Positions 5,586-32,142 of a stretch of 64,000 nucleotides of DNA are shown here, piece after piece; positions within the stretch are counted from its first letter, which is position 1; each line of letters starts with the position of its first letter. Below the pieces are notes generated by a model. That model saw only the letters and a program-made list of their open reading frames with translations. It was not told the origin of the DNA and searched no databases. Made by a program: the position numbers and the translations under genes. The DNA lies in NCBI RefSeq assembly GCF_014852685.1, contig NZ_JACZDF010000003.1:372001-436000 (forward strand). Reading direction: 5' to 3'. Source of the stretch: Flavimobilis rhizosphaerae (GTDB taxonomy: Bacteria > Actinomycetota > Actinomycetes > Actinomycetales > Cellulomonadaceae).

Positions 5586-6904
5586 GCCTCATCCTCCCGC
5601 AGGTCGAGGACGTCGACCATCGACCCCGCCGCGAGGTCCGTGACGTCCGCGGGCACGACCGCGAGCCCGTCGGACGCGGCGAGGGCCCCGAGCAGGTGCG
5701 AGCCGCGACCGCCGACCGGCGTCGCCTCGGGCAGGCCGTCCGGCCACGTGAGCGCGACGCGCACGTACTGCTCCTTGCCCGCGGGCGAGGTGAGCGGGGC
5801 CGTGAGCGTCGCGCGCACGCGCCGGCGCGTGAGCGTCGTGGCACCCGCGAGGCGCCGCAGCAGCGGTCGTACGAAGACCTCGAAGGACACGTATGAGCTC
5901 ACCGGGTTGCCCGGCAGCCCCACGACGACGGCGCCCGACGGCAGCGTGCCGACCGCCTGCGGACGCCCCGGCTGCATCCGCACGTGCACGAGCTCGAGGT
6001 GCTCGGCGAGCGCGTCGCGCACGACGTCGAACTCGCCGACCGACACCCCGCCGCTCGTCACGACGACGTCCGCCGCGAGATGAGGGTCGGTGAGCAGGGC
6101 GCGCAGCGCGGCGACGTCGTCGGGCACCGTCCGCACCGCCACCTCTGCGCCCGCCGCGCGCGCGAGCGCGGCGAGCTGGACGGAGTTCGACTCGAAGATC
6201 GCGCCGTGCGGCAGCGGTTCCCCGGGCGCGAGCGAACCGGGCGCGACAAGCTCCGAGCCCGTCGAGACAACAAGGACGCGCGGGCGCCTGCGCACCGGCA
6301 AGGTCGCGTGGCCCGTCGCCGCCGCAAGCCCGAGGCGCGCCGCCGTGAGGACCTCGCCCGCACGCAGAACCGTCGCGCCCGCGGCGACGTCCTCACCGCG
6401 ACGGCGAATGTTCGCACCCGCCGGCACGGGCTCGAGAACCGTCACCGCGTCCCGGCCCGCGTCCGTCCGCTCGACCTGCACGACCGTATCCGCGCCCGAC
6501 GGCACCGGGGCACCCGTCATGATGCGCACCGCCACACCTGGGACGAGCGTGAGGTCGCGCGGGTCGCCCGCCGGGACGACGTCGACGACGGGGAGAGTGC
6601 CTGTGCCACCCATGGCCGGCTCGTGCGCGTCGGCACCCTGGACCCCGGTGAGATCCGCGTGCCGCAGCGCGTACCCGTCCATCGCCGAGTTGTCCCACGG
6701 CGGCAGGTCGACGAGCGAGGTGACATCGGCGGAGAGGATGCGGCCGAGCGCGGCGACGTCGGCCGGGATCACCTCCGCAGGTAGCGAACCGCCGAGCGCG
6801 AGGACCGCGGCCGCGTGCTCAGCCGGTGTGCGCGTCGGGCGGGGGGCGTCGAGGCGCTGCACGGGAGTGCCGGGCGCGGGCGTAGCGTCGTCGGAGGGGC
6901 TCAC
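5582..6904 (-). CDS. moeA: Molybdopterin molybdotransferase MoeA
   Basis: 440 residues from GTG. MoeA inserts molybdate into adenylated molybdopterin. Visible family features are DLPPWDNSAMDGYALR near residue 70, the MTGAPVPSGADTVVQVE segment, the central TSGGVSVGEFD motif and the PGNPVSSYVSFEVFVRP loop, followed by the C-terminal beta domain. It leads the moeA-moaC-mog operon and diverges from moaA; the 103-base gap must hold both promoters, but no clear operator was seen. Confidence 0.97.
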   Translation of the reverse strand: MSPSDDATPAPGTPVQRLDAPRPTRTPAEHAAAVLALGGSLPAEVIPADVAALGRILSADVTSLVDLPPWDNSAMDGYALRHADLTGVQGADAHEPAMGGTGTLPVVDVVPAGDPRDLTLVPGVAVRIMTGAPVPSGADTVVQVERTDAGRDAVTVLEPVPAGANIRRRGEDVAAGATVLRAGEVLTAARLGLAAATGHATLPVRRRPRVLVVSTGSELVAPGSLAPGEPLPHGAIFESNSVQLAALARAAGAEVAVRTVPDDVAALRALLTDPHLAADVVVTSGGVSVGEFDVVRDALAEHLELVHVRMQPGRPQAVGTLPSGAVVVGLPGNPVSSYVSFEVFVRPLLRRLAGATTLTRRRVRATLTAPLTSPAGKEQYVRVALTWPDGLPEATPVGGRGSHLLGALAASDGLAVVPADVTDLAAGSMVDVLDLREDEA

Positions 6905-7007
6905 GGCGCCAACCTACTCGGCGCCACCGACACCGCGCAGGGCCACCGCCGGGTTTTTCCACGGGCGACCCCGGGCAGATGTCGGGGGCCCCTCCTAGAC
7001 TGGCGGC

Positions 7008-8114
7008 GTGGCGGACCTCACCTCGACCGACCACCCCGCGCAGGCGCCCGGCGCCGCACGCGACGGGGTGCCCGTGGGCGAGGGCGCACGGCCCGAGGAC
7101 CCCGGTCTCGTCGACCGCTACGGTCGCCGCGCGATCGACCTGCGCGTCTCCCTCACCGACCGCTGCAACCTCCGCTGCACGTACTGCATGCCCGCGGAGG
7201 GCCTCGAGTGGACGCCCACCGAGCAGATGCTCACCGACGACGAGATCTCGCGGCTCGTGCGCGTCGCCGTCGAACGCCTCGGGGTGACCGAGGTGCGCTT
7301 CACGGGCGGCGAGCCGCTCCTGCGGCGCGGCCTCGAGGACATCGTCGCGGCGACGCACGCGTTGCGGACCCCCGACGGCGCTCGAGTGCCGACCTCCCTC
7401 ACGACGAACGGCCTCGGCCTCGACCGGCGTGCCCGTGCGCTCGCGGACGCCGGCCTCACGCGCGTCAACGTCTCCGTCGACTCCCTCGACGCCGCGCGCT
7501 ACGCGCAGCTCACCCGCCGCGACCGCCTCCACGACGTCCTCGCGGGCCTCGACGCCGCCGAGGCCGTCGGGTTCGCGCCCATCAAGGTCAACGCCGTGCT
7601 CGTCCGCAGCATCAACGACGACGAGGCGCCCGCGCTGCTCGACTGGGCGCTCGCACGCGGCTTCGAGCTGCGGTTCATCGAGCAGATGCCGCTCGGCCCG
7701 CACGGCACGTGGGTGCGCGAGGACATGGTGACGGCCGACGAGATCCTCGCGTCCCTCACGGCCGCGCACACCCTCGAGCCCGAGGGGGCCGCCGCGCGCG
7801 GGGGAGCGCCCGCCGAGACGTGGCGCGTCGTGCGCGACGGCGTCGTCGTCGGACGCGTCGGGGTCATCGGCACCGTCACCCGGCCGTTCTGCGGCGCGTG
7901 CGACCGCACGCGGCTCACCTCCGACGGACAGGTCCGCACGTGCCTCTTCGCGCGTGAGGAGACCGACCTGCGCGCGCTCCTGCGCGGCGGCGCTCCCGAC
8001 GACGAGCTCGCGGACGCGTGGCGCGGCGCGATGTGGGGCAAGAAGGCCGGCCACGGCATCGACGACGACGGCTTCCTGCAGCCGCAACGACTCATGAGCG
8101 CGATCGGGGGATGA
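7008..8114 (+). CDS. moaA: GTP 3',8-cyclase MoaA (radical SAM)
   Basis: 368 residues from GTG. The radical-SAM cluster CxxxCxxC is Cys53, Cys57 and Cys60 in DRCNLRCTYCMP; the second [4Fe-4S] cluster uses the C-terminal FCGACDRTRL and RTCLF cysteines; the protein ends in MSAIGG, the conserved GlyGly tail needed for activity. It catalyses the radical rearrangement of GTP that starts molybdopterin synthesis, with MoaC encoded divergently nearby. The first 35 residues are a non-conserved extension. It overlaps moaD by four bases. Confidence 0.97.
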   Translation: MADLTSTDHPAQAPGAARDGVPVGEGARPEDPGLVDRYGRRAIDLRVSLTDRCNLRCTYCMPAEGLEWTPTEQMLTDDEISRLVRVAVERLGVTEVRFTGGEPLLRRGLEDIVAATHALRTPDGARVPTSLTTNGLGLDRRARALADAGLTRVNVSVDSLDAARYAQLTRRDRLHDVLAGLDAAEAVGFAPIKVNAVLVRSINDDEAPALLDWALARGFELRFIEQMPLGPHGTWVREDMVTADEILASLTAAHTLEPEGAAARGGAPAETWRVVRDGVVVGRVGVIGTVTRPFCGACDRTRLTSDGQVRTCLFAREETDLRALLRGGAPDDELADAWRGAMWGKKAGHGIDDDGFLQPQRLMSAIGG

Positions 8115-8386
8115 GCATGACGACGACCGACCTCAGCACGACCGTGACCGTCCGCTACTTCGCGGCAGCCGCCGCAGGGGCGGGCTGCGACGAGGAGACC
8201 CTCGTCGTCCCCGTCGACGCGACCGTCGGCGACGTCACGGCCGCTGTCCTCGCGGCCCACCCCGGCCTCGAGGCGCTGCTCGCACTCTGCAGCGTCCTCG
8301 CCGAGGGACGCCTGCTGCGCGACCCCGCCGCGCCGCTCGCGGGCGCGACGACCGTCGACGTCCTGCCGCCGTTCGCGGGCGGATGA
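8111..8386 (+). CDS. moaD: Molybdopterin synthase small subunit MoaD (sulfur carrier)
   Basis: 91 residues, ubiquitin-like fold: a beta strand VTVRYFAAAAAGAGC, then VGDVTAAVLAAHPGLEALLALCSVLAEG, and the mandatory C-terminal GlyGly (PPFAGG) that MoeB adenylates and thiolates. The start shares ATGA with the moaA stop; a second ATG two codons on is possible. Its partner MoaE is encoded convergently 76 bases away rather than directly downstream. Confidence 0.93.
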   Translation: MSMTTTDLSTTVTVRYFAAAAAGAGCDEETLVVPVDATVGDVTAAVLAAHPGLEALLALCSVLAEGRLLRDPAAPLAGATTVDVLPPFAGG

Positions 8387-8462
8387 GCCCGCCGGGCGAG
8401 CCGTCGTCGGGCGTCCGCGGCGTCGCGCGTCCTCGGCGTCGTGCGCCGCGCGAGGTCGCCGC

Positions 8463-8939
8463 TCAGGCGGAGCCGACCCACTCCTCGCCGCCGTCGGCGA
8501 GATCCTGCCGCTTCCACACCGGGAGGTGCTCCTTGACCGCGTCGACCAGCGCCGCCGCGGCCTCGAAGGCCTCGCGCCGGTGCGCCGAGCTCACCGCGAG
8601 AGCGAGCGCGCACTCGCCGACTGCGAGCGGCCCGAGGCGGTGCGTGACGGCCACCGCGTCGACATCGAGGTCCGCGACAGTCTCTGCGACGACCCGCGCG
8701 AGCACGTCGGCCGCGTCCGGGTGCCCGACGTACTCGATGCCCGTGACCCCGCGCCCCCCGTCATGGTCGCGGACGACGCCCGCGAACGTCACGACCGCGC
8801 CCGCAGCCGGATCGTCGACGAGCCGCGCGTGCTCGTCGACGTCGAGCGGGTCCGTCGTCACCGTCGCGCGCACGACGGCGCGGCGCGGCGGCACGATCCG
8901 CGAGCTGTCACGAGGGGCGGGAGCGTCGGGCAGGGTCAC
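8463..8939 (-). CDS. moaE: Molybdopterin synthase catalytic subunit MoaE
   Basis: 158 residues from GTG. MoaE transfers sulfur from thiocarboxylated MoaD to the precursor to make molybdopterin. The diagnostic elements are GAVVTFAGVVRDHDGG, IEYVGHP, VTHRLGPLAVGECALALAVSSAHR and VKEHLPVWKRQ, where the lysines of the last motif are in the active site. The first 25 residues are variable. The gene converges with moaD and diverges from mobA. Confidence 0.95.
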   Translation of the reverse strand: MTLPDAPAPRDSSRIVPPRRAVVRATVTTDPLDVDEHARLVDDPAAGAVVTFAGVVRDHDGGRGVTGIEYVGHPDAADVLARVVAETVADLDVDAVAVTHRLGPLAVGECALALAVSSAHRREAFEAAAALVDAVKEHLPVWKRQDLADGGEEWVGSA

Positions 8940-9010
8940 GCCCCCACCCTACGCACACGCCCTCGTCAGGCTGGCGGCACGGACCGTGCGAAAGACGCCC
9001 CACCCCCAGC

Positions 9011-9061
9011 GACGGATCGACGGCTTCCGCCCGTTCGACGGGGGGACCGCGTCAATCCGTG
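9011..9061. repeat. Family A 51-nt palindromic repeat, copy 1 (degenerate)
   Basis: The left arm ACGGATCGACG and right arm CGTCAATCCGT match at 10 of 11 positions. The ends and length agree with three other 51-nt elements at 21708, 32092 and 60071. The inner arms are more degenerate here than in the other copies. It lies in the divergent moaE/mobA gap, so it is not simply a terminator. Confidence 0.6.
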
Positions 9062-9106
9062 GGGTCGTGGTGGGGGCCGCCGGGGGCCCGGGGCGGAGGT
9101 GGCCGC

Positions 9107-9706
9107 GTGCTCTCCGCTGACGTGCTCGTCGTCGTGCCCGCCGGCGGGACCGCACGACGGCTCGGCGGAGGGGACAAGACCGCGCTCGACGTGGGCGGGC
9201 GCACCATCCTCGACCGCGTGCTCGATGCGACCGCCGCCTGGCCGCGCGTCGTCGTCGCCGACGACCCCGGACCCGCCGCCCGCGCCCGGCACCCCGGCGT
9301 GCGCTGGGTCCGCGAGGACCCGCCTGGAGGCGGGCCCGCCGCCGCACTTGCCGCCGGGGCCGCCACAGCGCCCGACGCGTCCGTGCTCGTCGCGCTCGCG
9401 GGCGACCAGCCGTGGGCGGGCATCGTCGTGCCGCGCCTGCTCGACGCTCTCGACGCGCACCCGGACGCGGGGGCGGCGCTCGCCGTCGGGGCGTCGGGCA
9501 GGCGCCAACCGCTGCTCGCCGCCTACCGGCTCGACGCCATCCGGCACGTGCTCGCAGGCGGCGCGCACAACCTCCCCGCGCGGGCCCTGGCCGAGGGGCT
9601 CGAGATCGTCGAGGTCCCTGTGACCGACGTCGAGGAGCTCGACGTCGACACCCCGGCCGACCTCGCGCGCGCCCGCGCGACCACACCTCCCGAGCCCGCG
9701 AGATAG
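9107..9706 (+). CDS. mobA: Molybdenum cofactor guanylyltransferase (MobA-like)
   Basis: 199 residues from a GTG preceded by GGAGGT; longer upstream readings lack a ribosome site. The fold is a nucleotidyltransferase: VLVVVPAGGTARRLGGGDKTALDVGG is the GTP-binding start, with ALAGDQPW as the metal-binding aspartate region and RRQPLLAAYRL typical of MobA. It would convert Mo-molybdopterin to the MGD form that nitrate reductase uses. The metal-site motif reads AGDQP rather than the usual xCDxP. The stop codon lies inside a 13-bp palindromic repeat. Confidence 0.87.
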   Translation: MLSADVLVVVPAGGTARRLGGGDKTALDVGGRTILDRVLDATAAWPRVVVADDPGPAARARHPGVRWVREDPPGGGPAAALAAGAATAPDASVLVALAGDQPWAGIVVPRLLDALDAHPDAGAALAVGASGRRQPLLAAYRLDAIRHVLAGGAHNLPARALAEGLEIVEVPVTDVEELDVDTPADLARARATTPPEPAR

Positions 9707-9765
9707 CGCTCCTCCGGCGAGATAGCGCGTGAGACGCGCTATCTCGAACGGGGAGCGCTATCTCG
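9699..9765. repeat. Nested inverted repeat of CGAGATAGCGC units (family C)
   Basis: Four copies of one unit alternate in orientation: CGAGATAGCGCTC (9699-9711), CGAGATAGCGCGT (9718-9730), ACGCGCTATCTCG (9734-9746) and GAGCGCTATCTCG (9753-9765). The inner pair is a perfect 13-bp stem with a 3-base loop, and the outer pair is a second perfect 13-bp stem. The mobA stop codon TAG is part of the first unit. It may act as a terminator or processing site between mobA and the mod operon. Confidence 0.7.
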
Positions 9766-9827
9766 CGATGCGGGGTTTTCACGTTGAAGCGCGCGCAGGT
9801 GCGGTTGTTTCCGTCTACGGTTGCCGC

Positions 9828-10229
9828 ATGAGCGTTCTTCGGGTGAGTGAGGCCGCGCGGCTGCTCGGCGTGAGCGACGACACCGTCCGCCGCTGGATCG
9901 ACGCCGGCCGCCTGCCCGCGACCCGCACCGACACGGGCCGCTGGATCGTCGCCGGCGTCGACCTCGCCGCGTTCGCACGTGAGCTCGCCGACGCGCCCGA
10001 CGGCGGTGACGGCACCGTCTCCGCCCGCAACCGCCTCGACGGCATCGTCACGCGAGTCGTCCGCGACGGCGTCATGGCGCAGGTCGAGGTCCAGGCCGGA
10101 CCGTTCCGCATCGTCTCGCTCGTGAGCCGAGAAGCGGCCGACGAGCTCGGCCTCGAGCCCGGCAGCCTCGTCGCCGCACGCGTCAAGGCGACGTCCGTGA
10201 TGATCGACCGGCTCGGAGAAGCACTATGA
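9828..10229 (+). CDS. Helix-turn-helix/TOBE molybdate-binding regulator
   Basis: 133 residues. Residues 1-45 are an excisionase/MerR-like helix-turn-helix (SEAARLLGVSDDTVRRWIDAGRLPATRT); residues about 65-133 are a single TOBE (Mop) domain (ARNRLDGIVTRVVRDGVMAQVEV...LGLEPGSLVAARVKATSVMIDR) of the type that binds molybdate. It is placed directly before modA and overlaps it by four bases, as in many actinobacterial mod operons, and probably senses molybdate to control the transporter. It is not a true ModE, which has a LysR-type DNA-binding domain. Confidence 0.85.
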   Translation: MSVLRVSEAARLLGVSDDTVRRWIDAGRLPATRTDTGRWIVAGVDLAAFARELADAPDGGDGTVSARNRLDGIVTRVVRDGVMAQVEVQAGPFRIVSLVSREAADELGLEPGSLVAARVKATSVMIDRLGEAL

Positions 10230-11143
10230 ACGCGGCCCGCCACGTCGCGATCCGTCCGACGGCCGCAGCGCGCGGCGAGGGCCGGGCGCGGACCCGTCCC
10301 GCCGCCCGCCCCGTTGCCTCCCGCCACGTCGCCGCCCTCGCGCTCGCGGCGCTCGCTGCGAGCGGGCTCGTCGCGTGCGCCGACGCGGTGCCGTCGTCCG
10401 GGGCGTCGTCGGGCACGGCGTCGTCCAGCGGGGCGTCGTCGGGCACAGCGTCGCCCAGTGGGACGACGCCCGCCGTCGCTGGACGCCTCGTCGTCCTTGC
10501 CGCCGCGTCCCTCGAGCCCGTCCTCACCGAGCTCGGCGACGAGCTCGAGGCCGCTCACCCCGGCCTGCAGATCGACTTCTCGTTCGCGGCGAGCTCCGCG
10601 CTCGCGGAGCAGGTCGTCGCGGGCGCTCCCGCCGACCTGCTCCTCACGGCCTCGGCCGCGACGATGACGACGGCCGCCGAGCACGTGACCGACCAGTCGG
10701 TGTTCGCGGGCAACACGCTCGTCATCGTCACGCCGCCCGACAACCCGGGGAAGGTCGCGACCCTCAAGGACCTCGAGAACGGCGACCTGCGGCTCGCGCT
10801 GTGCGCCGAGGAGGTGCCGTGCGGGGCCGCGGCCGCCCAGGTCATCGAGCAGGCCGGGCTCACCGTCACTCCCGACACGTACGCCGAGAACGTCACGGCC
10901 GCGCTCACGCTCGCCCTCACGGGCGAGGTCGACGCAGCGCTCGTCTACACGACCGATGCGAAGGACGCCGGCGAGGCCGTCCGCACGATCGAGGTCCCCG
11001 AGGCCGCGAGCGTCGTCAACGACTACCTCGTCGCGACCGTCGCCGAGGCGCCCAACCCGGCTGCGGCCGCCGCGTTCCGCGCGCTGCTCGACTCCGAGCG
11101 GGGCCGTGCCGCGCTCACCGACGCCGGGTTCCGCGTGCCGTGA
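10226..11143 (+). CDS. modA: Molybdate ABC transporter substrate-binding lipoprotein ModA
   Basis: 305 residues. An unusually long basic N-region precedes the hydrophobic helix and the lipobox GLVAC (Cys51), so it is a lipoprotein facing the outside. A low-complexity Ser/Gly/Thr/Ala linker of about 30 residues follows, encoded by imperfect tandem copies of a gcgtcgtcgggcac-like unit. The binding domain then starts at LVVLAAASLEPVLTEL and shows FSFAASSALAEQV and GAPADLLLTAS, typical of ModA oxyanion binding. It is followed by modB with a GTGA overlap. Confidence 0.94.
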   Translation: MNAARHVAIRPTAAARGEGRARTRPAARPVASRHVAALALAALAASGLVACADAVPSSGASSGTASSSGASSGTASPSGTTPAVAGRLVVLAAASLEPVLTELGDELEAAHPGLQIDFSFAASSALAEQVVAGAPADLLLTASAATMTTAAEHVTDQSVFAGNTLVIVTPPDNPGKVATLKDLENGDLRLALCAEEVPCGAAAAQVIEQAGLTVTPDTYAENVTAALTLALTGEVDAALVYTTDAKDAGEAVRTIEVPEAASVVNDYLVATVAEAPNPAAAAAFRALLDSERGRAALTDAGFRVP

Positions 11144-12054
11144 CGTCCGACGCCCCACGGCAGCCCGCTGCGGCGCGGCATCCGCGCGCCGCCGCGGGGA
11201 GTCGTCATGCGGCGCCGCGGCGCCGAGCAACCCGGCAGCGGCCGCCGCTCGCGCTCGCCATCCCCGGCGTGCTCGCGCTCGCGTTCCTCGTCGCGCCGTT
11301 CGTCGCGCTCGTCGCCTCGGCACCCTGGGGCGAGATGACGGCGCTGCTCGACGACGGCCCTGCGGCTGAGGCCCTCTGGCTGAGCCTGCGCACCGCGAGC
11401 CTCTCGGCGGTGCTGTGCGTCGTGCTCGGCGTGCCGCTCGCGTGGCTGCTCGCGCACGACGCCCTGCCGCTGCCCGGCCTCGTGCGCGCGCTCGTGACGA
11501 TGCCCATGGTGCTGCCGCCCGTCGTCGGTGGCGTCGCTCTCCTCGCGCTGCTCGGCCGTCGGGGCCTGCTGGGGGAGCACCTCGACGCGTGGTTCGGCGT
11601 GCAGCTGCCGTTTACGACGGCGGCCGTCGTCGTCGCGCAGACGTTCGTCGCGCTGCCGTTCCTCGTCATCTCCGTCGACGCCGCGCTGCGGGCCGTCGAC
11701 CCGCGGCTCGCGCAGGTTGCGGCGTCGCTCGGTGGCTCGCGCTGGTACGTGTTCCGGCGCGTGACGCTTCCCGTCGTTGCGCCCGGCGTCGCCGCGGGCG
11801 CCGTCCTCGCGTTTGCGCGCGCCCTCGGCGAGTTCGGCGCGACCATCACGTTCGCAGGCAACTTCCCCGGCGTCACGCGCACGATGCCCGTCGCGATCTA
11901 CCTCGCGCTCGAACGCGACCGTGCGACCGCCGTCGCGCTCTCGCTCGTGCTCGTCGCCGTGTCGCTCGTCGTGCTCGTCGCGCTGCGCTCGCGCTGGCTC
12001 GGCGGGCTCGCGGGGCTCGCCGCGCGCGGCGTCGAGATGGCGGGTGCGCGATGA
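11140..12054 (+). CDS. modB: Molybdate ABC transporter permease ModB
   Basis: 304 residues from GTG. After a basic cytoplasmic N-terminus of about 40 residues there are six membrane helices. The ATPase-contact loop of the binding-protein-dependent permease family is present as AASLGGSRWYVFRRVTLP, and VAPGVAAGAVLAFARALGEFGATITFAGN is the strongly conserved ModB C-terminal segment. It forms the channel of the ModABC molybdate importer. It overlaps both neighbours by four bases. Confidence 0.95.
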   Translation: MTSDAPRQPAAARHPRAAAGSRHAAPRRRATRQRPPLALAIPGVLALAFLVAPFVALVASAPWGEMTALLDDGPAAEALWLSLRTASLSAVLCVVLGVPLAWLLAHDALPLPGLVRALVTMPMVLPPVVGGVALLALLGRRGLLGEHLDAWFGVQLPFTTAAVVVAQTFVALPFLVISVDAALRAVDPRLAQVAASLGGSRWYVFRRVTLPVVAPGVAAGAVLAFARALGEFGATITFAGNFPGVTRTMPVAIYLALERDRATAVALSLVLVAVSLVVLVALRSRWLGGLAGLAARGVEMAGAR

Positions 12055-12836
12055 CGCGCCCCGGTCCCGGAGTCGGGGCGGCCGGGGGACGCACGGCCGA
12101 CGGTCGCGTCGGGCCCGGCACGACGACCCTGCCCGACGGCCTCCGCGCGCACGTCGTCGCCCAGCGCGGCCGCCTGCGGCTCGACGTGTCCCTCGACGTC
12201 GCGCCCGGCGAGGTGCTGTGCGTCGTCGGGCCCAACGGGTCAGGCAAGTCGACGCTCCTCTGGGCGCTCGCCGGCCTCGTGCCGCTGAGCGGCGGGACCG
12301 TGACGCTCGGCGGGACGGTGCTCGACGACGCACGCCAGCACGTGCCCGCTGCGGGCCGGCACGTCGGGCTCGTCCCGCAGTCCCACGTCCTCTTCACTCA
12401 CCTCAGCGTCCTCGAGAACGTCGCGTTCGGGCTCCGCGCCCGCGGTGTCCGGCCGGGCGTCGCGCGGGCGCGCGCGACCGACGCCGTCGCACGCGTCGGC
12501 CTCACCGACCACGCCCACGACCGCGCCGACCGGCTCTCCGGCGGGCAGTCGCAGCGCGTCGCGCTCGCCCGCGCCCTCGTCGTCGAACCGCGGCTGCTGC
12601 TGCTCGACGAGCCCTTCGCGGCGCTCGACGCCGCCGTCCGGCCGCTCCTCCACGACGTCGTGCGCGACGTCGTCAGGCGAGGCATCCCGACCGTCCTCGT
12701 CACGCACGACGCCACCGAGGCGGCCGCCCTCGGCACGCGCACGTTGCATCTGGCTGACGGGAGGGCCACCCACGGGGGAGAATCAGGGCACGAGGCCCGC
12801 TCGGAGCGGGCCGACGACGGATGGAGACCCGTGTGA
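12051..12836 (+). CDS. modC: Molybdate ABC transporter ATP-binding protein ModC
   Basis: 261 residues. Walker A is GPNGSGKST, the Q-loop follows in VGLVPQSHVLF, the signature is LSGGQSQRVALARAL, Walker B is LLLLDEPFAALD and the switch His is in VTHD. At this length it lacks the C-terminal regulatory TOBE domains of classical ModC, so molybdate sensing may rest with the separate TOBE protein at 9828. About 30 extra N-terminal residues precede the fold. Its stop overlaps the GTG of the next gene. Confidence 0.93.
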   Translation: MTRPGPGVGAAGGRTADGRVGPGTTTLPDGLRAHVVAQRGRLRLDVSLDVAPGEVLCVVGPNGSGKSTLLWALAGLVPLSGGTVTLGGTVLDDARQHVPAAGRHVGLVPQSHVLFTHLSVLENVAFGLRARGVRPGVARARATDAVARVGLTDHAHDRADRLSGGQSQRVALARALVVEPRLLLLDEPFAALDAAVRPLLHDVVRDVVRRGIPTVLVTHDATEAAALGTRTLHLADGRATHGGESGHEARSERADDGWRPV

Positions 12837-26419: not shown

Positions 26420-27171
26420 TCACCCTCGCCAACGTCCGCAAGGACTACGCGTCCGACGTGCGCATCGGGCCGCTCGACGTCGAGCTGCCCGCGGGCGGCA
26501 TCACAGCGCTCGTCGGCCCCAACGGCGCAGGCAAGTCGACGCTTCTCACGATGGTCGGGCGGCTCCTCGGGCTCGACGCCGGCACGGTGACGATCGGCGG
26601 CTACGACGTCACGCGCACGCCGTCGAAGCAGCTCGCGAAGGTCGTCTCGGTGCTGCGGCAGGAGAACCATTTCGTCACACGGCTCACCGTGCGCCAGCTC
26701 GTCGGCCTCGGACGCTTCCCGCACTCCAAGGGCCGGCTGACCGCCGACGACGAGCGGCACGTCTCCGACGCGATCGACTTCCTCGGCCTCCACGAGCTCG
26801 AGGGCCGCCACCTCGACGAGCTCTCCGGCGGGCAGCGGCAGCGCGCCTACGTCGCGATGGTGCTCGCCCAGGACACGCCGTACGTGCTGCTCGACGAGCC
26901 GCTCAACAACCTCGACATGCGTCACGCCGTCGGAATGATGCAGCACCTGCGGCGCGCGGCGGACACCCTCGGCCGCACGGTCGTCGTCGTCCTCCACGAC
27001 GTGAACTTCGCGGCCCGCTACGCGGACCACGTCGTCGCGATGAAGGACGGGCTCGTCGTCGAGCAGGGCAGCCCGGCCGAGATCATGCGGGACGACGTGC
27101 TCTCACGGATTTTCGACACCCCGGTGTCGGTCGTCGACGGGCCCCACGGGCCCGTCGCCTGCTACTTCTGA
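26416..27171 (+). CDS. Iron-siderophore ABC transporter ATP-binding protein
   Basis: 251 residues from GTG. Walker A GPNGAGKST, Q-loop SVLRQENHFVT, signature LSGGQRQRAYVAMVLAQD, Walker B YVLLDEPLNNLD and switch His in VVVLHDVNFA mark the FecE/CeuD class. It powers uptake by the two permeases upstream. Its last 91 bases are repeated at 31988-32078. The 27 codons concerned encode the same residues in both copies but differ at five third positions, so the present 3' end was probably supplied by the inserted element while the original end was pushed downstream. Confidence 0.94.
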   Translation: MITLANVRKDYASDVRIGPLDVELPAGGITALVGPNGAGKSTLLTMVGRLLGLDAGTVTIGGYDVTRTPSKQLAKVVSVLRQENHFVTRLTVRQLVGLGRFPHSKGRLTADDERHVSDAIDFLGLHELEGRHLDELSGGQRQRAYVAMVLAQDTPYVLLDEPLNNLDMRHAVGMMQHLRRAADTLGRTVVVVLHDVNFAARYADHVVAMKDGLVVEQGSPAEIMRDDVLSRIFDTPVSVVDGPHGPVACYF

Positions 27172-27172
27172 C
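27082..27172. repeat. Left direct repeat of the island (attL-like)
   Basis: This 91-bp copy is the functional end of the ATPase gene. It differs from 31988-32078 at 27111, 27144, 27150, 27153 and 27156, each a codon third position (ATT/ATC, CCC/CCG, GGG/GGA, CCC/CCG, GTC/GTG). Confidence 0.85.
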
Positions 27173-27213: not shown

Positions 27214-27987
27214 CTAGGCGCGGCTGGAGGGCGACAGCGCAGGGAGCCGTGCGAGAAGCGCGAGACTGCAATCGTCCTTCGTCGCTTCGCGTACGCGGGT
27301 CGCGAGGAACTTCCGGAGGCGCTTGCGATGGATCGGGTTCTTTGTCTGGTAGGTGGGCGAGTCCGCAAGCAGCCTGACGAGCTTGAGACACGCAGGAGCG
27401 AGCATCTTCGTCCTCTGGTTGTAGAGGCTCTCGGCAGCACCGTCGCTCATGAGGATGAAACCGGTCACTCCCTCGAGCGACCCCCGCAGGAGGCGCATCG
27501 ACGTGATCGCGCTGGACGACGTGACAAAGGTCGTGGTGTTGGCGAACTCATCGTTGTCCGGTGAGCTCGCGATCCTCAGCTCTCCATCGCGAACATATCC
27601 GATGACTCCGTCACCGATGTGCACGACGACGAACTGGTCGCCGTGGGTGGCGACTGCAAGCATCGTCGAGGCCAGGTCCTTGACGTGGCACTCGAGCCTT
27701 GCGGAGAGCGACGTCAGGCGAGCGAGCAGACTCGAGACGATCTCTGCCTTGATCCGTGCGCCGTCACCCCGCGATGTGAACGACATGAAGTTCTCGACAA
27801 GCAGGCGTGTTCCTTCATCGACAACTGCCTGAGCGCCGTAGTGGGACAACCTGGCGGAACCAGCGCCGTCAGAGAGGCAGACGACTTGTACACCGTGTCG
27901 TGACGCGCTCGCGGTCATGTCCTGGCACGGCGAGCCGTCCAGGACATGACCGCGTCCGCGGACCTGATGGTGGAAGACCTTGAACAA
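27214..27987 (-). CDS. PP2C-family protein phosphatase of the island
   Basis: 257 residues from a TTG directly after the TAG of the vWA gene, with GGCGGAG upstream. The PP2C metal-binding motifs are present: Asp23 in CQD, Asp40-Gly in CLSDGAGSA, Asp126-Gly in HIGDGVIGYV, Asp182 in MSDGA and Asp239 in KDDCSLALL. It is a compact cytoplasmic Mn/Mg Ser/Thr phosphatase without extra domains. Together with the kinase and vWA genes it forms a kinase/phosphatase/vWA triad; it should reverse phosphorylation by the kinase. It is the last gene of the minus-strand operon, ending 42 bases from the left repeat. Confidence 0.9.
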   Translation of the reverse strand: MFKVFHHQVRGRGHVLDGSPCQDMTASASRHGVQVVCLSDGAGSARLSHYGAQAVVDEGTRLLVENFMSFTSRGDGARIKAEIVSSLLARLTSLSARLECHVKDLASTMLAVATHGDQFVVVHIGDGVIGYVRDGELRIASSPDNDEFANTTTFVTSSSAITSMRLLRGSLEGVTGFILMSDGAAESLYNQRTKMLAPACLKLVRLLADSPTYQTKNPIHRKRLRKFLATRVREATKDDCSLALLARLPALSPSSRA

Positions 27988-28674
27988 CTAGAGCTCCGCC
28001 CACCCTGCAAGTCCCTCAAGGTCAAGCTTAGGAGGCGCGTCACCCGGGCTCGACTGTGAGACACGCGCAACGGACTTCGACAGCCAGGCGAAGAACTCGT
28101 TGAAGCTCAGGCCCTGAAGGCGCAGGGGTGGCTTCGTCGGACTGAAGCGCGCGAGGACGCTCATGTCCGCGTCAGGACCGATACCGATGGGGAAGATCGT
28201 CAGCTTCTTGTCCCCGATCATCTTCGTCACGCGTTCGACGGCACGCTCTAGCTCCGCCGCGCTCCCGTTGGGGCCGCCGTCGGTCATGAGGACGAGCCAC
28301 GGCTGGTAATAGAGGACACCGGTGTCGGAGTACATCTTCTTGCGCGTCTCGAGCGTGTCGAGCGCAAGGTTGACCCCCTCGCCCAGGTAGGTCGCGCCTC
28401 GAGCGTCGATCCCGCTGATCCTCTGGGCGCGGTCCACGCCCGCAAAGTCCTGGATGACCTTTGTCCCGGAGTTGAACTCGACGATGCAGATCTCAGCGGC
28501 GTCGTGCGCGTCCTCGTCCTTGTCGATCGCGTCGAAAAACTGGTTGACACCCGCGACCAGCTCCCGAATCGGAGCACCGTCCATGGACCCGCTCGTGTCG
28601 AGGCAGAGCGCGACTGGTACCCGGGGAGCCGGGTTCTCGAAGAGGTCCTCGTTCTCGATGTTGATTCGTGCCAT
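27988..28674 (-). CDS. TerY-like vWA domain protein of the island
   Basis: 228 residues, essentially one von Willebrand A domain. The MIDAS is complete: DTSGSM from Asp26, Thr95 in GATYLG and Asp132 in LMTDGG. The overall plan (PVALCLDTSGSMDGAPIRELVAGVNQFFDAI ... LTIFPIGIGPDADMSVLARFS) is that of TerY and its relatives. The ATG overlaps the kinase stop by one base (TGATG). TerY-type proteins appear with PP2C phosphatases and protein kinases in stress-response loci, probably as metal-dependent binders of the kinase target. The exact role here is inferred from context. Confidence 0.9.
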   Translation of the reverse strand: MARINIENEDLFENPAPRVPVALCLDTSGSMDGAPIRELVAGVNQFFDAIDKDEDAHDAAEICIVEFNSGTKVIQDFAGVDRAQRISGIDARGATYLGEGVNLALDTLETRKKMYSDTGVLYYQPWLVLMTDGGPNGSAAELERAVERVTKMIGDKKLTIFPIGIGPDADMSVLARFSPTKPPLRLQGLSFNEFFAWLSKSVARVSQSSPGDAPPKLDLEGLAGWAEL

Positions 28675-31340
28675 CAGTGTGTTCCCTTCGTGGAGGTGCG
28701 CTGTCGGTACGCACCGCCGCTGCTGGTGTGGATGGGGTGGACTGCTGCTGGGGGATCGTCGTACGGCGTGCTTGCAAGTCCTGAACGATTGAGCTGGTTG
28801 GCAAACCGGCGAAGGAGCCACCGGGTTGGCGTCGTGAACCAGGACCGGCCCCCGACAAGGCGGACCAGATGTGGGCTGGTCGCGTAGTACGACGCGACGA
28901 ACCGCCTGCCCGCGGGACTCGTCAGCAGCACCGTGTCCCTCCATCGACGGAGAACCCAGACCTCGGGGCAGTCGTATGTACCGAAGGCCGCAGTCGCCAC
29001 GAAGCACCCGCTGCTCTTGGTGTCTGGCGCGACGCCCTCGTGAGCGGACGCGGATGTCGTTGATCTCGGGATGGGTACGCAGTCGGCCGGGTAGACGCCG
29101 CTCTTCATCTTGTGGGTCGTGGGGACGGCCTTGTGGTTCGAGAGGTGCCACTCGACGTTGCCGAACGTGATGAAGGGCTTTCCGCAGCGTGTGCAGAGAC
29201 GGTTCCTGTCGAGCTCCATCCGCCGTGCGCGTGCTGCCACGTCCTTGTCGTGGCAGGTAGGACAGCGTCCGAACTTCATCGAGGCTTTCTTGTGTCGACT
29301 GCCGCATTCGCGGCATGCCGACGTGATGCATCCTCCGCACACGGCGATCCCTGGAGCTTGGGGGCGGAATCGGCGCCCGCAGTCCGTGCAGGTAGGAAGA
29401 CTGCAGTTGCGACACTTGCCGTTGGAGAGCTTGTCGGGGGCCATGCTGCGCTGGCAACCCTGGCATGCGACCAGCGCCGGACGGCAGTCGACGCAGAGCC
29501 GCGGAGTGGAAAAGGTCTTGGTCTCCTCGCGCCATATTCCGGCCATCGAACAGCGGCATGACTCGCACTCGTAGAGGGGCGTTGCGGGCGACATAGCCTT
29601 GAACCGAGTGGGGTAGATGTCGTTCGACATCGGATCGAAGTTCTCGCTGCTTCGCAGGAATCGACGATAGTTGCGGAAAGCCTTGAGCCATTCGGCGTCG
29701 GTCGGTCGGGATGAGTATCGTGTGCCATCTCGGTGGAACGTGTTCCAGAACAGGCTCTTGACGTCTACCTGGACATGGCTCCACATGTACTTCCACTTGC
29801 CGGCCGGCTGGTCCTTGTTCGACCGATCCTTGAACTGGAGCGCGAAGTTCCCTTCTCTGATGAGCTTTGACACGTCGCCGTCCGAACCGGACCTGGCGTA
29901 AGGGAAGAGGCCGGTGATGAGGATCATGAAGAGCATCGTTGCGACAGCAAATCGCTCGTCCTCGGCAGTTCGAAGGAACTCGGGGAAGCGCTTGCCGATA
30001 ACCTCGGGCGGGCTGTACATCTCAACTCCGACGGGGCACGGGAAGCCCTCAACTTGCCAAGAGTCCGCGTCGATGATCGTGACGTTCTTTTCGTCGTCCA
30101 CGAGGACGTTTTTGGGGTTGATGTCGCCCAGAAGGATGTTGTGGGAATGCAGGTACGAGACCTTCTCGAGGAATGAGATCGCGACGTCGACGAGGTCGGC
30201 CTTCGTCCAGTCGGGAAATGTCCGCCTCAGTCGCCTGGGTTGGAAGATCACCTTGGAGAACTCGCTGCCTTGTGCGCGGGGCATGAGATAGCCGACGAAC
30301 TCGCCGTAGGTGTTCCTGACGATGGCCTCGGGGAAGCAGATGCCGGGCTCGTCGAAGTTCCTCGCTGATAGCAGGCGGATCTTGGCCTCGCGATGCTTTG
30401 TAATGTGGTGCTCGTCGAAGATCTTGATGACGTGAGAGTCCGAGGCGGAGTAGACGGCGCCCTCACCCCCTTCGCCGAGCTTCGTCGCGAGCTGCATCTG
30501 CACGATTCCTTGCGGGCTGTCGACGAGGATGTCGTCGCCTGCGCTCGGGACCACGGTGACCGTGATGATCTCGTCGGGTCCTGCGAACTTCGCCGTGGTG
30601 GAGAACGGTTGGCGGCGCGACCGTCCGTCGCCGGTGTCGTCCGACGGGGGATTGGGGCGCGCTCCGGTCGAGGTTCCGGCATCTAGGCTCGCCAGGAGCG
30701 GGACTTCCTGGAATAGATCCTCCAGGGTTGTCTCCAATGATTCGATCTCCAGGGTGTCGGATGCTCTCGCCTGTGGAGTCGCCTGGCGCTGCCGTAGTCG
30801 CCGAAGCTTGGCGCTGGCGCGACGTGCGATGGTCTCGAGCGATGGAACCTCCACGTGTCCGCCCGGGATCAGATAGCCAGCGGCGATAGAACGGTTCAGC
30901 TGCAGCGCCATGAGGTTGATGCGCAGCTGCAGGGTGACATCGTTGGTCAGGAGGAACATCGCATAGGTGGACGAGTAGACCTCGAAGAGGTGCACGAAGA
31001 GATCGTCTGCGTACGGATTTCCGATATCGCCCAGCGATGTCCTGACGAGGCCGTGGGCCTCTGCCGAGCGGAGGAAGGTGAGGGCGTTCTTCGCCTTCTC
31101 GAACGCTGCGGCCTGGGCAGCGGGGGTGGTTGACGGGTCCTTTTTGGCGAACTTCGAGAGCTCATCGATGACCTTGGTCGGGACGACGACAGGGCTGCCA
31201 CCGGATTCGATCTGGGGTGCGATCCGCTCGAAGAGCGACTTGAGGTGATCCTTGTGCCGGGGGTCGGTGTCCATGAAGACGTTTGTGTCGATGAACATCC
31301 TCGTCGTCGACCCGGTCAGCTCGACCGGATCGAAGGTCAT
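28674..31340 (-). CDS. PIN nuclease-protein kinase-zinc finger-CFI-box fusion protein
   Basis: 888 residues from the ATG at 31340; upstream in-frame ATGs would run into the previous gene. Residues 14-160 are a PIN domain with its acidic set Asp18 (FIDTN), Glu60, Asp112/113 and Asp134 (TND). After a helical linker, residues 285-560 are a Ser/Thr kinase: glycine loop GEGGEGAVY (289-297), Lys306, catalytic Asp406 in GDINPKN, Asp424-Ala-Asp in place of DFG followed by SWQ, and YSPPEV. Residues 591-736 hold at least nine Cys pairs (CVDC, CQGC, CRNC, CTDC, CREC, CPTC) and one C2H2 finger (Cys716, Cys719, His732, His736). Residues 779-830, from CFVATAAFG, are a CFI-box C-terminal domain. Kinase and PIN both look active. 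I know of no described protein with this exact order. Confidence 0.88.
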   Translation of the reverse strand: MTFDPVELTGSTTRMFIDTNVFMDTDPRHKDHLKSLFERIAPQIESGGSPVVVPTKVIDELSKFAKKDPSTTPAAQAAAFEKAKNALTFLRSAEAHGLVRTSLGDIGNPYADDLFVHLFEVYSSTYAMFLLTNDVTLQLRINLMALQLNRSIAAGYLIPGGHVEVPSLETIARRASAKLRRLRQRQATPQARASDTLEIESLETTLEDLFQEVPLLASLDAGTSTGARPNPPSDDTGDGRSRRQPFSTTAKFAGPDEIITVTVVPSAGDDILVDSPQGIVQMQLATKLGEGGEGAVYSASDSHVIKIFDEHHITKHREAKIRLLSARNFDEPGICFPEAIVRNTYGEFVGYLMPRAQGSEFSKVIFQPRRLRRTFPDWTKADLVDVAISFLEKVSYLHSHNILLGDINPKNVLVDDEKNVTIIDADSWQVEGFPCPVGVEMYSPPEVIGKRFPEFLRTAEDERFAVATMLFMILITGLFPYARSGSDGDVSKLIREGNFALQFKDRSNKDQPAGKWKYMWSHVQVDVKSLFWNTFHRDGTRYSSRPTDAEWLKAFRNYRRFLRSSENFDPMSNDIYPTRFKAMSPATPLYECESCRCSMAGIWREETKTFSTPRLCVDCRPALVACQGCQRSMAPDKLSNGKCRNCSLPTCTDCGRRFRPQAPGIAVCGGCITSACRECGSRHKKASMKFGRCPTCHDKDVAARARRMELDRNRLCTRCGKPFITFGNVEWHLSNHKAVPTTHKMKSGVYPADCVPIPRSTTSASAHEGVAPDTKSSGCFVATAAFGTYDCPEVWVLRRWRDTVLLTSPAGRRFVASYYATSPHLVRLVGGRSWFTTPTRWLLRRFANQLNRSGLASTPYDDPPAAVHPIHTSSGGAYRQRTSTKGTH

Positions 31341-31987: not shown

Positions 31988-32078
31988 ATCATGCGGGACG
32001 ACGTGCTCTCACGGATCTTCGACACCCCGGTGTCGGTCGTCGACGGGCCGCACGGACCGGTGGCCTGCTACTTCTGAC
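31988..32078. repeat. Right direct repeat of the island (attR-like)
   Basis: A detached copy of the last 27 codons and stop of the siderophore ATPase gene, ending ACYF-stop. It still encodes exactly the same residues as the live copy but with five silent changes. The bases before it (GGTGCCA) are unrelated to the ATPase gene, marking the island edge. Confidence 0.85.
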
Positions 32079-32091
32079 GCGCCCCTGCACT

Positions 32092-32142
32092 GACGGATTG
32101 ATGGCTTCCGACCATTGAACGGGCGAAAGCCATCAATCCGTC
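32092..32142. repeat. Family A 51-nt palindromic repeat, copy 3
   Basis: GACGGATTGATGGCTTCCG pairs with CGAAAGCCATCAATCCGTC (18 of 19) around ACCATTGAACGGG. It lies 14 bases after the right repeat, where the uninterrupted siderophore operon would have ended, so it probably belonged to that operon's downstream region before insertion. Confidence 0.8.

Follow-up and report, generated by a model that had tools for sequence, protein, structure and literature searches.

Can a single bacterial protein hold a nuclease together with a protein kinase that might control it, and what would such a protein be used for? The question is raised by a gene in a 64,000-nucleotide stretch of the Flavimobilis rhizosphaerae genome (contig NZ_JACZDF010000003.1, positions 372,001 to 436,000), which we call the window. 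An earlier note, written from the letters of this stretch, had described the gene at 28674-31340 as one protein that joins a PIN nuclease, a kinase, a zinc-finger array and a CFI box. We find that the fusion is genuine and that it stands, in relatives from several lineages, beside genes for a vWA protein and a PP2C-type phosphatase. The system is a real, conserved and probably new variant of the TerY-P-like triad of vWA, PP2C and kinase genes, with a nuclease built in. Judged from sequence comparison, we see about an even chance that it is a phosphorylation-gated ribonuclease cassette, a nuclease-armed relative of TerY-P and of E. coli YegI-PphC-YegL that would act by growth arrest or abortive infection.

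The PIN-kinase fusion and its gene linkage

The gene begins with an ATG at 31340 and runs as one frame of 888 codons to 28674 on the minus strand; a plus-strand reading of the same interval is interrupted by stops. The coordinates had been given correctly, only the strand was missing, and the residues singled out at the time (D18, E60, D112, D113, D134, K306, D406, D424-A-D426, C716, C719 and C779) are all found at the positions named. PIN and kinase are fused in 17 of the 20 evaluable loci, which come from Actinomycetota, Bacillota and a Fusobacterium record; L036, whose frame is cut short by the contig end, was not counted for PIN. The protein of L071, from another genome, is 52% identical to the window protein over 902 aligned columns (query residues 1-862) and keeps all domains and the whole four-gene operon. 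We therefore accept the 888-residue fusion and reject a frameshift or assembly artefact, the explanation that the earlier note had reserved for the case that homologues never carry these domains fused. The features are collected in Table 1.

Table 1. Features of the four-gene insert and its borders, in window coordinates.
Feature	Position	Strand	Basis or remark
Left 91-bp direct repeat	27082..27172		3' end of FecE-like ABC ATPase gene
PP2C-type phosphatase gene	27214..27987	minus	PF13672, E 1.4e-42
vWA adaptor gene	27988..28674	minus	Pfam VWA, E 3e-9; metal ion-dependent adhesion site (MIDAS) DTSGSM; C-terminal tail GWAEL
PIN-kinase-zinc-CFI gene	28674..31340	minus	Single open frame, 888 amino acids; Pfam and NCBIfam domains; homologue L071
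CFI box, residues 779-845	28806..29006	minus	NCBIfam CFI_box_CTERM NF041770, E 1.4e-21, 76.1 bits (cut-off 40)
Zinc-binding module array, residues 592-754	29079..29567	minus	Nine CxxC; conserved columns
YegI-like Ser/Thr kinase domain, residues ~278-582	29595..30509	minus	Pkinase; K306, D406, N411, D424
PIN nuclease-like domain, residues ~14-150	30891..31301	minus	PIN_4 and PDB profile match; acids D18, E60, D112, D134
First operon gene, 180 amino acids	31354..31896	minus	46% identity to same-place gene of L071
Right 91-bp direct repeat	31988..32078		95% identical to left copy; then hairpin 32092-32142

In the other three loci (L019, L021 and L022) the PIN domain is encoded by a separate gene of 212-215 amino acids directly upstream of the kinase gene. 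A PIN domain is thus linked to the kinase clade in 20/20 evaluable loci versus 0/14 loci of the vWA-PP2C-kinase type, a comparison in which search profile A2, which contains PIN columns, may favour PIN-bearing loci. The window protein found L019, L021 and L022 via the kinase alone, with E values of 2.2e-80, 9.6e-79 and 9.8e-75 (limit 1e-20), and their separate PIN genes were noticed only on reading the neighbourhoods; the query therefore did not select for PIN. At L019 the separate PIN gene is overlapped by that of a large protein (8124-10676), which shows a P-loop-like motif and weakly matches LeoBC (PADLOC, E 3e-4). The companions are equally constant: the order kinase-vWA-PP2C was seen in all 21 clade loci whose neighbourhoods were read, in line with the co-occurrence with vWA and PP2C genes that the earlier note had proposed to look for; L052 has a small extra open reading frame and a PP2C frame broken in two. 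The locus L034 (7801-12328) holds tandem PIN-kinases followed by two vWA genes; one of the tandem copies ends after the kinase and has intact PIN acids, and the other is full length with D134N in its PIN domain.

The 14 control loci (L020, L023, L030-L033 and L059-L066) have the order vWA-PP2C-kinase; they were taken from ranked plasmid matches and one genome (L020) and are not a random sample. All of them gave a vWA profile match. The family PIN profile, which unrelated PIN families could escape, matched none of the 14 across 670 open reading frames, even at E 10. When one neighbouring protein from each of ten controls was scanned against Pfam in general, no PIN family was detected at E 0.1. 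Leaving L023 aside, the 12 controls taken from plasmid records show no annotated PIN product, in records where many genes are hypothetical and the annotation is incomplete. We set the profile result of these controls against the idea that a PIN gene stands by chance beside any such triad. A kinase tree was built from 26 rows, 20 of them PIN-clade kinases, and a branch supported at 92/89 sets these 20 apart from the rest; L036 is among the PIN-clade rows, L070 and L071 are not in the tree, and there were long-branch warnings among the six control rows. Near the triad of the control L060, from a Rhizobium rhizogenes plasmid, lies a CAP12/Pycsar TIR effector gene (6643-7533).

Relatives are found in few genomes, counted here as matches under a chosen E value in genome sets that overlap. 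They amount to 5/396 genomes of the order (own genome included; one of them, G163, lacks PIN and belongs to the YegI type), 3/396 of the phylum (own included), 2/197 in the class of G565 (both known before), 3/299 in the phylum of G942, 6/250 in the class of G1239 (G1239 included) and 3/249 in the family of G941 (G941 included). Going by L003, a Ruminococcus metagenome-assembled genome, we place the groups of G942 and G1239 in Bacillota. Among plasmid records, relatives occur in Paenarthrobacter and Lysinibacillus and in a 2.1-Mb Fusobacterium entry that is classed as a plasmid, and genome contigs gave a further relative in Cryobacterium. One relative is already labelled "PIN domain-containing protein" in a public plasmid record.

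Active sites, zinc modules and C-termini

By profile comparison, the N-terminal region is a PIN-like domain. PIN_4 of Pfam scores 19.1 bits in the whole protein, under its cut-off of 21.9, and 24.2 bits, over the cut-off, when the 165-residue domain is scanned alone; PIN_12 and PIN stay under their cut-offs in both cases. At E 0.1, PIN_4 matches 8/10 members of the PIN alignment A1, and in a scan of whole kinases it matches 7/10, in a set that includes three kinases without PIN. Compared with the PDB, a ten-member PIN profile finds Utp24/Fcf1 (E 1.4e-4) and, weakly, EST1A (E about 0.1). The acids D18, E60, D112 and D134, which had been described as intact, are indeed all present in the window copy, and the tetrad is kept in 20/21 kinase-linked domains (18/19, then both of two added later). 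We read the PIN domain as an effector, probably a ribonuclease, that is joined to the kinase.

A second kind of PIN is found directly upstream of the PIN-kinase in L016, L053, L054, L055, L056 and L057, where a gene encodes a helix-turn-helix (HTH)-type N-terminus and a degenerate PIN. At least one acid is lost in 6/6 of these copies, with an alignment that is partial for L054 and L056 and with an apparent loss at 112 in L053 and L055 that a one-column shift may explain; both of the latter have Asn in place of D134. The four proteins scanned for an HTH, those of L016, L053, L055 and L057, each gave a match, in two cases above cut-off. Because the acids are kept in the linked domains and lost in the HTH-linked copies, catalysis seems to be under selection where the PIN is linked to the kinase. 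The degenerate-PIN/HTH protein has the look of a regulator, resembling one made from an inactive toxin copy.

The kinase itself is recognised by Pfam Pkinase (E 5e-11, 42.8 bits, cut-off 31.7) and has DxDS where DFG is usual. K306, D406 and D424 are kept in 26/26 aligned kinases, with and without PIN, and in this sense the earlier description of an apparently active kinase holds. The same constancy would also fit a scheme in which the kinase is the toxin and the PIN serves only to bind or process the targets of the kinase or its mRNA. The model here is KKP of Pf prophages, in which, according to the available part of PMC11341870, kinase and phosphatase form a toxin-antitoxin balance that is tripped by a phage protein, and toxicity can lie in kinases that a phosphatase holds in check. 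We nevertheless consider this scheme quite unlikely, given that the PIN acids persist in nearly all kinase-linked domains and decay in every HTH-linked copy, and prefer a PIN effector gated by the kinase.

Behind the kinase, nine CxxC pairs start at residues 592 to 716, whereas 5000 shuffles of residues 580-760 gave 2.1 on average and never more than 7. The nine Cys pairs of the earlier note stand as the total, in which the pair inside the "C2H2" motif, counted there in addition, is included. The C2H2 finger, placed at 716-736, reaches just E 0.19 with Pfam zf-C2H2, and homologues have CxxC...H...C or CxxC...CxxC at its position. H732 and H736 are unconserved and the Pfam treble clef zf_Tbcl scores over its cut-off in 3/5 homologues scanned; we therefore set the C2H2 finger aside, and the last zinc module (C716, C719, H743, C754) is probably a treble clef. 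Additionally, the L018 kinase protein is extended at its N-terminus by an S1 RNA-binding domain (31.0 bits, cut-off 22), which points to RNA, and that of L035 matches IF2_N under the cut-off (22.8 versus 25.3); both lend indirect support to a nucleic-acid theme.

The CFI box, which had been said to start at C779, is matched by NF041770 from exactly this residue and over the curated cut-off. It is present in 7/22 kinases, a class assigned by NCBIfam in 4/10 scanned members and by motif in the rest, and by this distribution it is a dispensable, optional part of the kinase protein. The other C-termini are hydrophobic in five cases (L057 is borderline, and L070 and L071 were judged by eye), end in a short hydrophobic or aromatic tail in seven and show none of these in three. 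The five hydrophobic ends are probably transmembrane. The exchange of CFI box, hydrophobic end and short tail suggests a shared role, perhaps membrane attachment, and is a testable hint on what a CFI box does; our literature search on the CFI box found no paper. The membrane idea is weak because the helical moments of six short C-termini lie only weakly above those of shuffles (0.04 to 0.27 of the shuffles reach them). AlphaFold, run on the CFI box with L003-L005 (four rows), gave an unreliable all-helical model with a mean predicted local distance difference test (pLDDT) score of 46.8.

A repeat-bracketed insert and its possible role

All four genes lie on the minus strand and appear to form a single operon. 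The 180-residue first gene ends 13 bases 5' of the PIN-kinase ATG, the PIN-kinase stop overlaps the vWA start codon (TGATGG), and the PP2C gene begins with TTG immediately after the vWA stop. The first gene has no Pfam, NCBIfam or PADLOC match and no match in plasmid records; it shares with its counterpart in L071 (4828-5364) the stretch RQIAALKAH..YD.KYYSMGRASQ.

Together the four genes are bracketed by the 91-bp repeats and have a guanine plus cytosine (GC) content of 0.626, compared with 0.724 in the window. They form a small integrated element, bracketed by repeats of the 3' end of the ATPase gene. A genome of the same genus, G197, has no PIN-kinase match; there, the two flanks are separated by ~12.3 kb of other content and the matching 16.5 kb contain one repeat copy, so that the site differs by more than the insert. 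Among the matches listed from 150 genomes of the family, a second repeat copy occurs only in the window's genome, in a scan that scored five candidates per genome and may miss further copies. A Pfam scan recognised no integrase among the four insert genes. In the Paenarthrobacter plasmid, recombinase and transposase genes adjoin the cassette. From the repeats, the low GC, the homologues on plasmid records and the patchy presence, we conclude that the cassette is probably mobile.

These observations bear on two further explanations. In the first, the system is a stress or signalling regulator whose kinase and phosphatase tune RNA processing by the PIN in ordinary physiology, as YegI and PphC may do at the membrane. 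YegI and PphC are described in the available part of PMC13232886 as a membrane-bound kinase and phosphatase for which no expression-promoting condition is known, and the hydrophobic C-termini of 5/22 kinases would suit such a place; patchy distribution, plasmid carriage and insertion between repeats are unlike a housekeeping gene, however, and we find this explanation doubtful. The second is a plasmid or island addiction module without an anti-phage role, with the HTH or other first gene as antitoxin and the PIN-kinase as toxin. It draws on the plasmid location of relatives and on the HTH genes directly upstream, including the HTH_17 genes of L014 and L018, which overlap the PIN-kinase start by four bases. 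The first gene differs in kind among loci, however, and the proteins of the window and L071 have no family match (the window protein was scanned), which makes such a module very unlikely.

For the phosphorylation-gated cassette we infer ribonuclease activity, phospho-gating, a resting state, a trigger and a defence role along the following lines. In the resting cell, PP2C would keep the kinase or the PIN in an inactive phosphorylation state, and the vWA protein would hold the complex together via its conserved GWAEL tail. A phage product or other stress, sensed through the zinc modules, would upset this balance, and with changed phosphorylation the PIN would cut RNA, leading to growth arrest or abortive infection. 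By analogy with the systems compared below, the role is probably phage defence or that of a toxin-antitoxin module. If the gating is true, a compact eukaryotic-type kinase/phosphatase switch would control a ribonuclease in one mobile cassette.

A number of results weigh against this picture. No PADLOC model fits the window proteins: the PIN-kinase matches kinase models weakly (best E 1e-6), PP2C has one weak match and vWA none, and STK_OB reaches just E 0.078. PADLOC did recognise defence genes in the neighbourhood, AbiD next to L002 and an ApeA-like gene close to L018, which count in favour of the picture; the 7 proteins scanned, from 4 loci, were hand-picked, partly as one looked Abi-like, and give no measure of enrichment. 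Pattern scans of IMG/VR returned no match that encoded a relative, and phage records gave three short weak matches and no more. The first operon gene of the window itself lacks an HTH match. For the PIN domain, the PIN_4 scores lie near the Pfam cut-off, AlphaFold of the region (two rows, window and L002) gave an unreliable model (mean pLDDT 46.5), and the active-site tetrad has its exception in D134N of L034b, one of two tandem copies.

The C-terminal tails allow a more detailed version of the cassette. The vWA proteins of the clade have a Trp near the end in 20/20 cases and the exact motif GWx[DE][LIM] in 13/20, and the same kind of tail is found in 4/6 HTH/degenerate-PIN proteins (L053, L054, L055 and L056). 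For these four, shuffling puts the chance of such a tail at 0 to 0.0004 each, where L054 and L056 are close relatives. In the form GWx[DE][LIV], the tail is seen at the window vWA C-terminus (27988-28050) and in the L053-L056 proteins. Going by the motif, a tail common to both kinds of protein suggests a common docking site. One may then speculate about a mobile ribonuclease system in at least three phyla, in which the kinase licenses its own PIN and PP2C serves as antitoxin. The GWx[DE]L-type tails of vWA and of the degenerate-PIN/HTH regulator would contend for the single docking site by which the switch is set, and CFI box, hydrophobic helix and short tail would be interchangeable membrane anchors of the kinase. 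We regard this version as tentative and rather unlikely as a whole; if it is true, membrane anchoring would be the first proposed role for a CFI box.

Comparison with known systems

The claim that no protein of this order has been described finds no contradiction among the literature matches listed, none of which reports a PIN-kinase fusion with vWA and PP2C; an earlier mention is possible in the 2012 TerY paper or the 2020 defence screen. What is not new is the vWA/PP2C/kinase triad itself, which is known from TerY-P.

As a putative nuclease, the window protein is placed with the PIN_4 family, whose solved relatives are Fcf1/Utp24 and EST1A/SMG6: it shares the Pfam family by profile and the D...E...D...D pattern, and differs in that its PIN is tied to a kinase. 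VapBC consists of a small stand-alone PIN toxin and a small antitoxin gene upstream, whereas the window PIN sits in a kinase of 888 amino acids and the gene upstream has no family match. PIN domains are also known from a TPR-GreA/B-PIN conflict system (PMC8195603, 2021), in a text whose available part contains neither "TerY" nor "PP2C"; conversely, the available part of PMC4978471 describes a Helicobacter TerY-P island without PIN.

Kinase activity balanced by a phosphatase is what likens the cassette to KKP, a likeness by description, and KKP differs in having two kinases, with no vWA or nuclease named in the part of PMC11341870 at hand. The available part of PMC7159879 (eLife 2020) reports actinobacterial kinase (zinc ribbon), PP2C and vWA genes beside GAP1-N2 GTPases; it names no PIN domain for these triads, its two mentions of PIN concerning other systems, and Pfam gave no GTPase match among our four insert genes.

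The E. coli set YegL-PphC-YegI has vWA and PP2C genes and a homologous kinase with 26% identity (residues 284-563) that likewise keeps the Lys, the Asp and DxDS. It differs in the order vWA-PP2C-kinase, in a kinase domain that starts near residue 1 with no PIN match, and in what follows the kinase, namely a hydrophobic segment with almost no CxxC. YegI autophosphorylates and is dephosphorylated by PphC, as stated in the accessible part of PMC13232886. In L017 an Hsp70-like protein (by eye; 10742-12508) is encoded near the PIN-kinase, and E. coli yegI likewise adjoins yegD, annotated as a chaperone.

The closest frame of comparison is TerY-P. In the parts of the two papers available, activity against T7-like phages is reported for TerY-P triads (PMC7699616), and TerY-P accompanies CoCoNuT systems, with TerY-P-like modules that contain an OB-fold kinase as stand-alone antiphage systems (PMC11090510); the phrase "PIN domain" is absent from the text of PMC11090510. 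We dropped a link to tellurite (Ter) functions, as the window's genome has no TerD (PF02342). The targets of TerY-P/YegI-type kinases are not stated in the available parts of the papers compared, and a probable effector, a nuclease with intact acids that is fused to the kinase in many lineages, makes this target question testable. Common to TerY-P and the window are the vWA, PP2C and Ser/Thr kinase genes side by side and a kinase with C-terminal zinc modules (PMC11090510 and PMC7699616, as far as available). The zinc module of the window family is a treble clef rather than a ribbon by Pfam in homologues. Finally, the kinase gene of the window system comes first in the triad instead of last, and it brings its PIN domain along, fused or from an adjacent gene.

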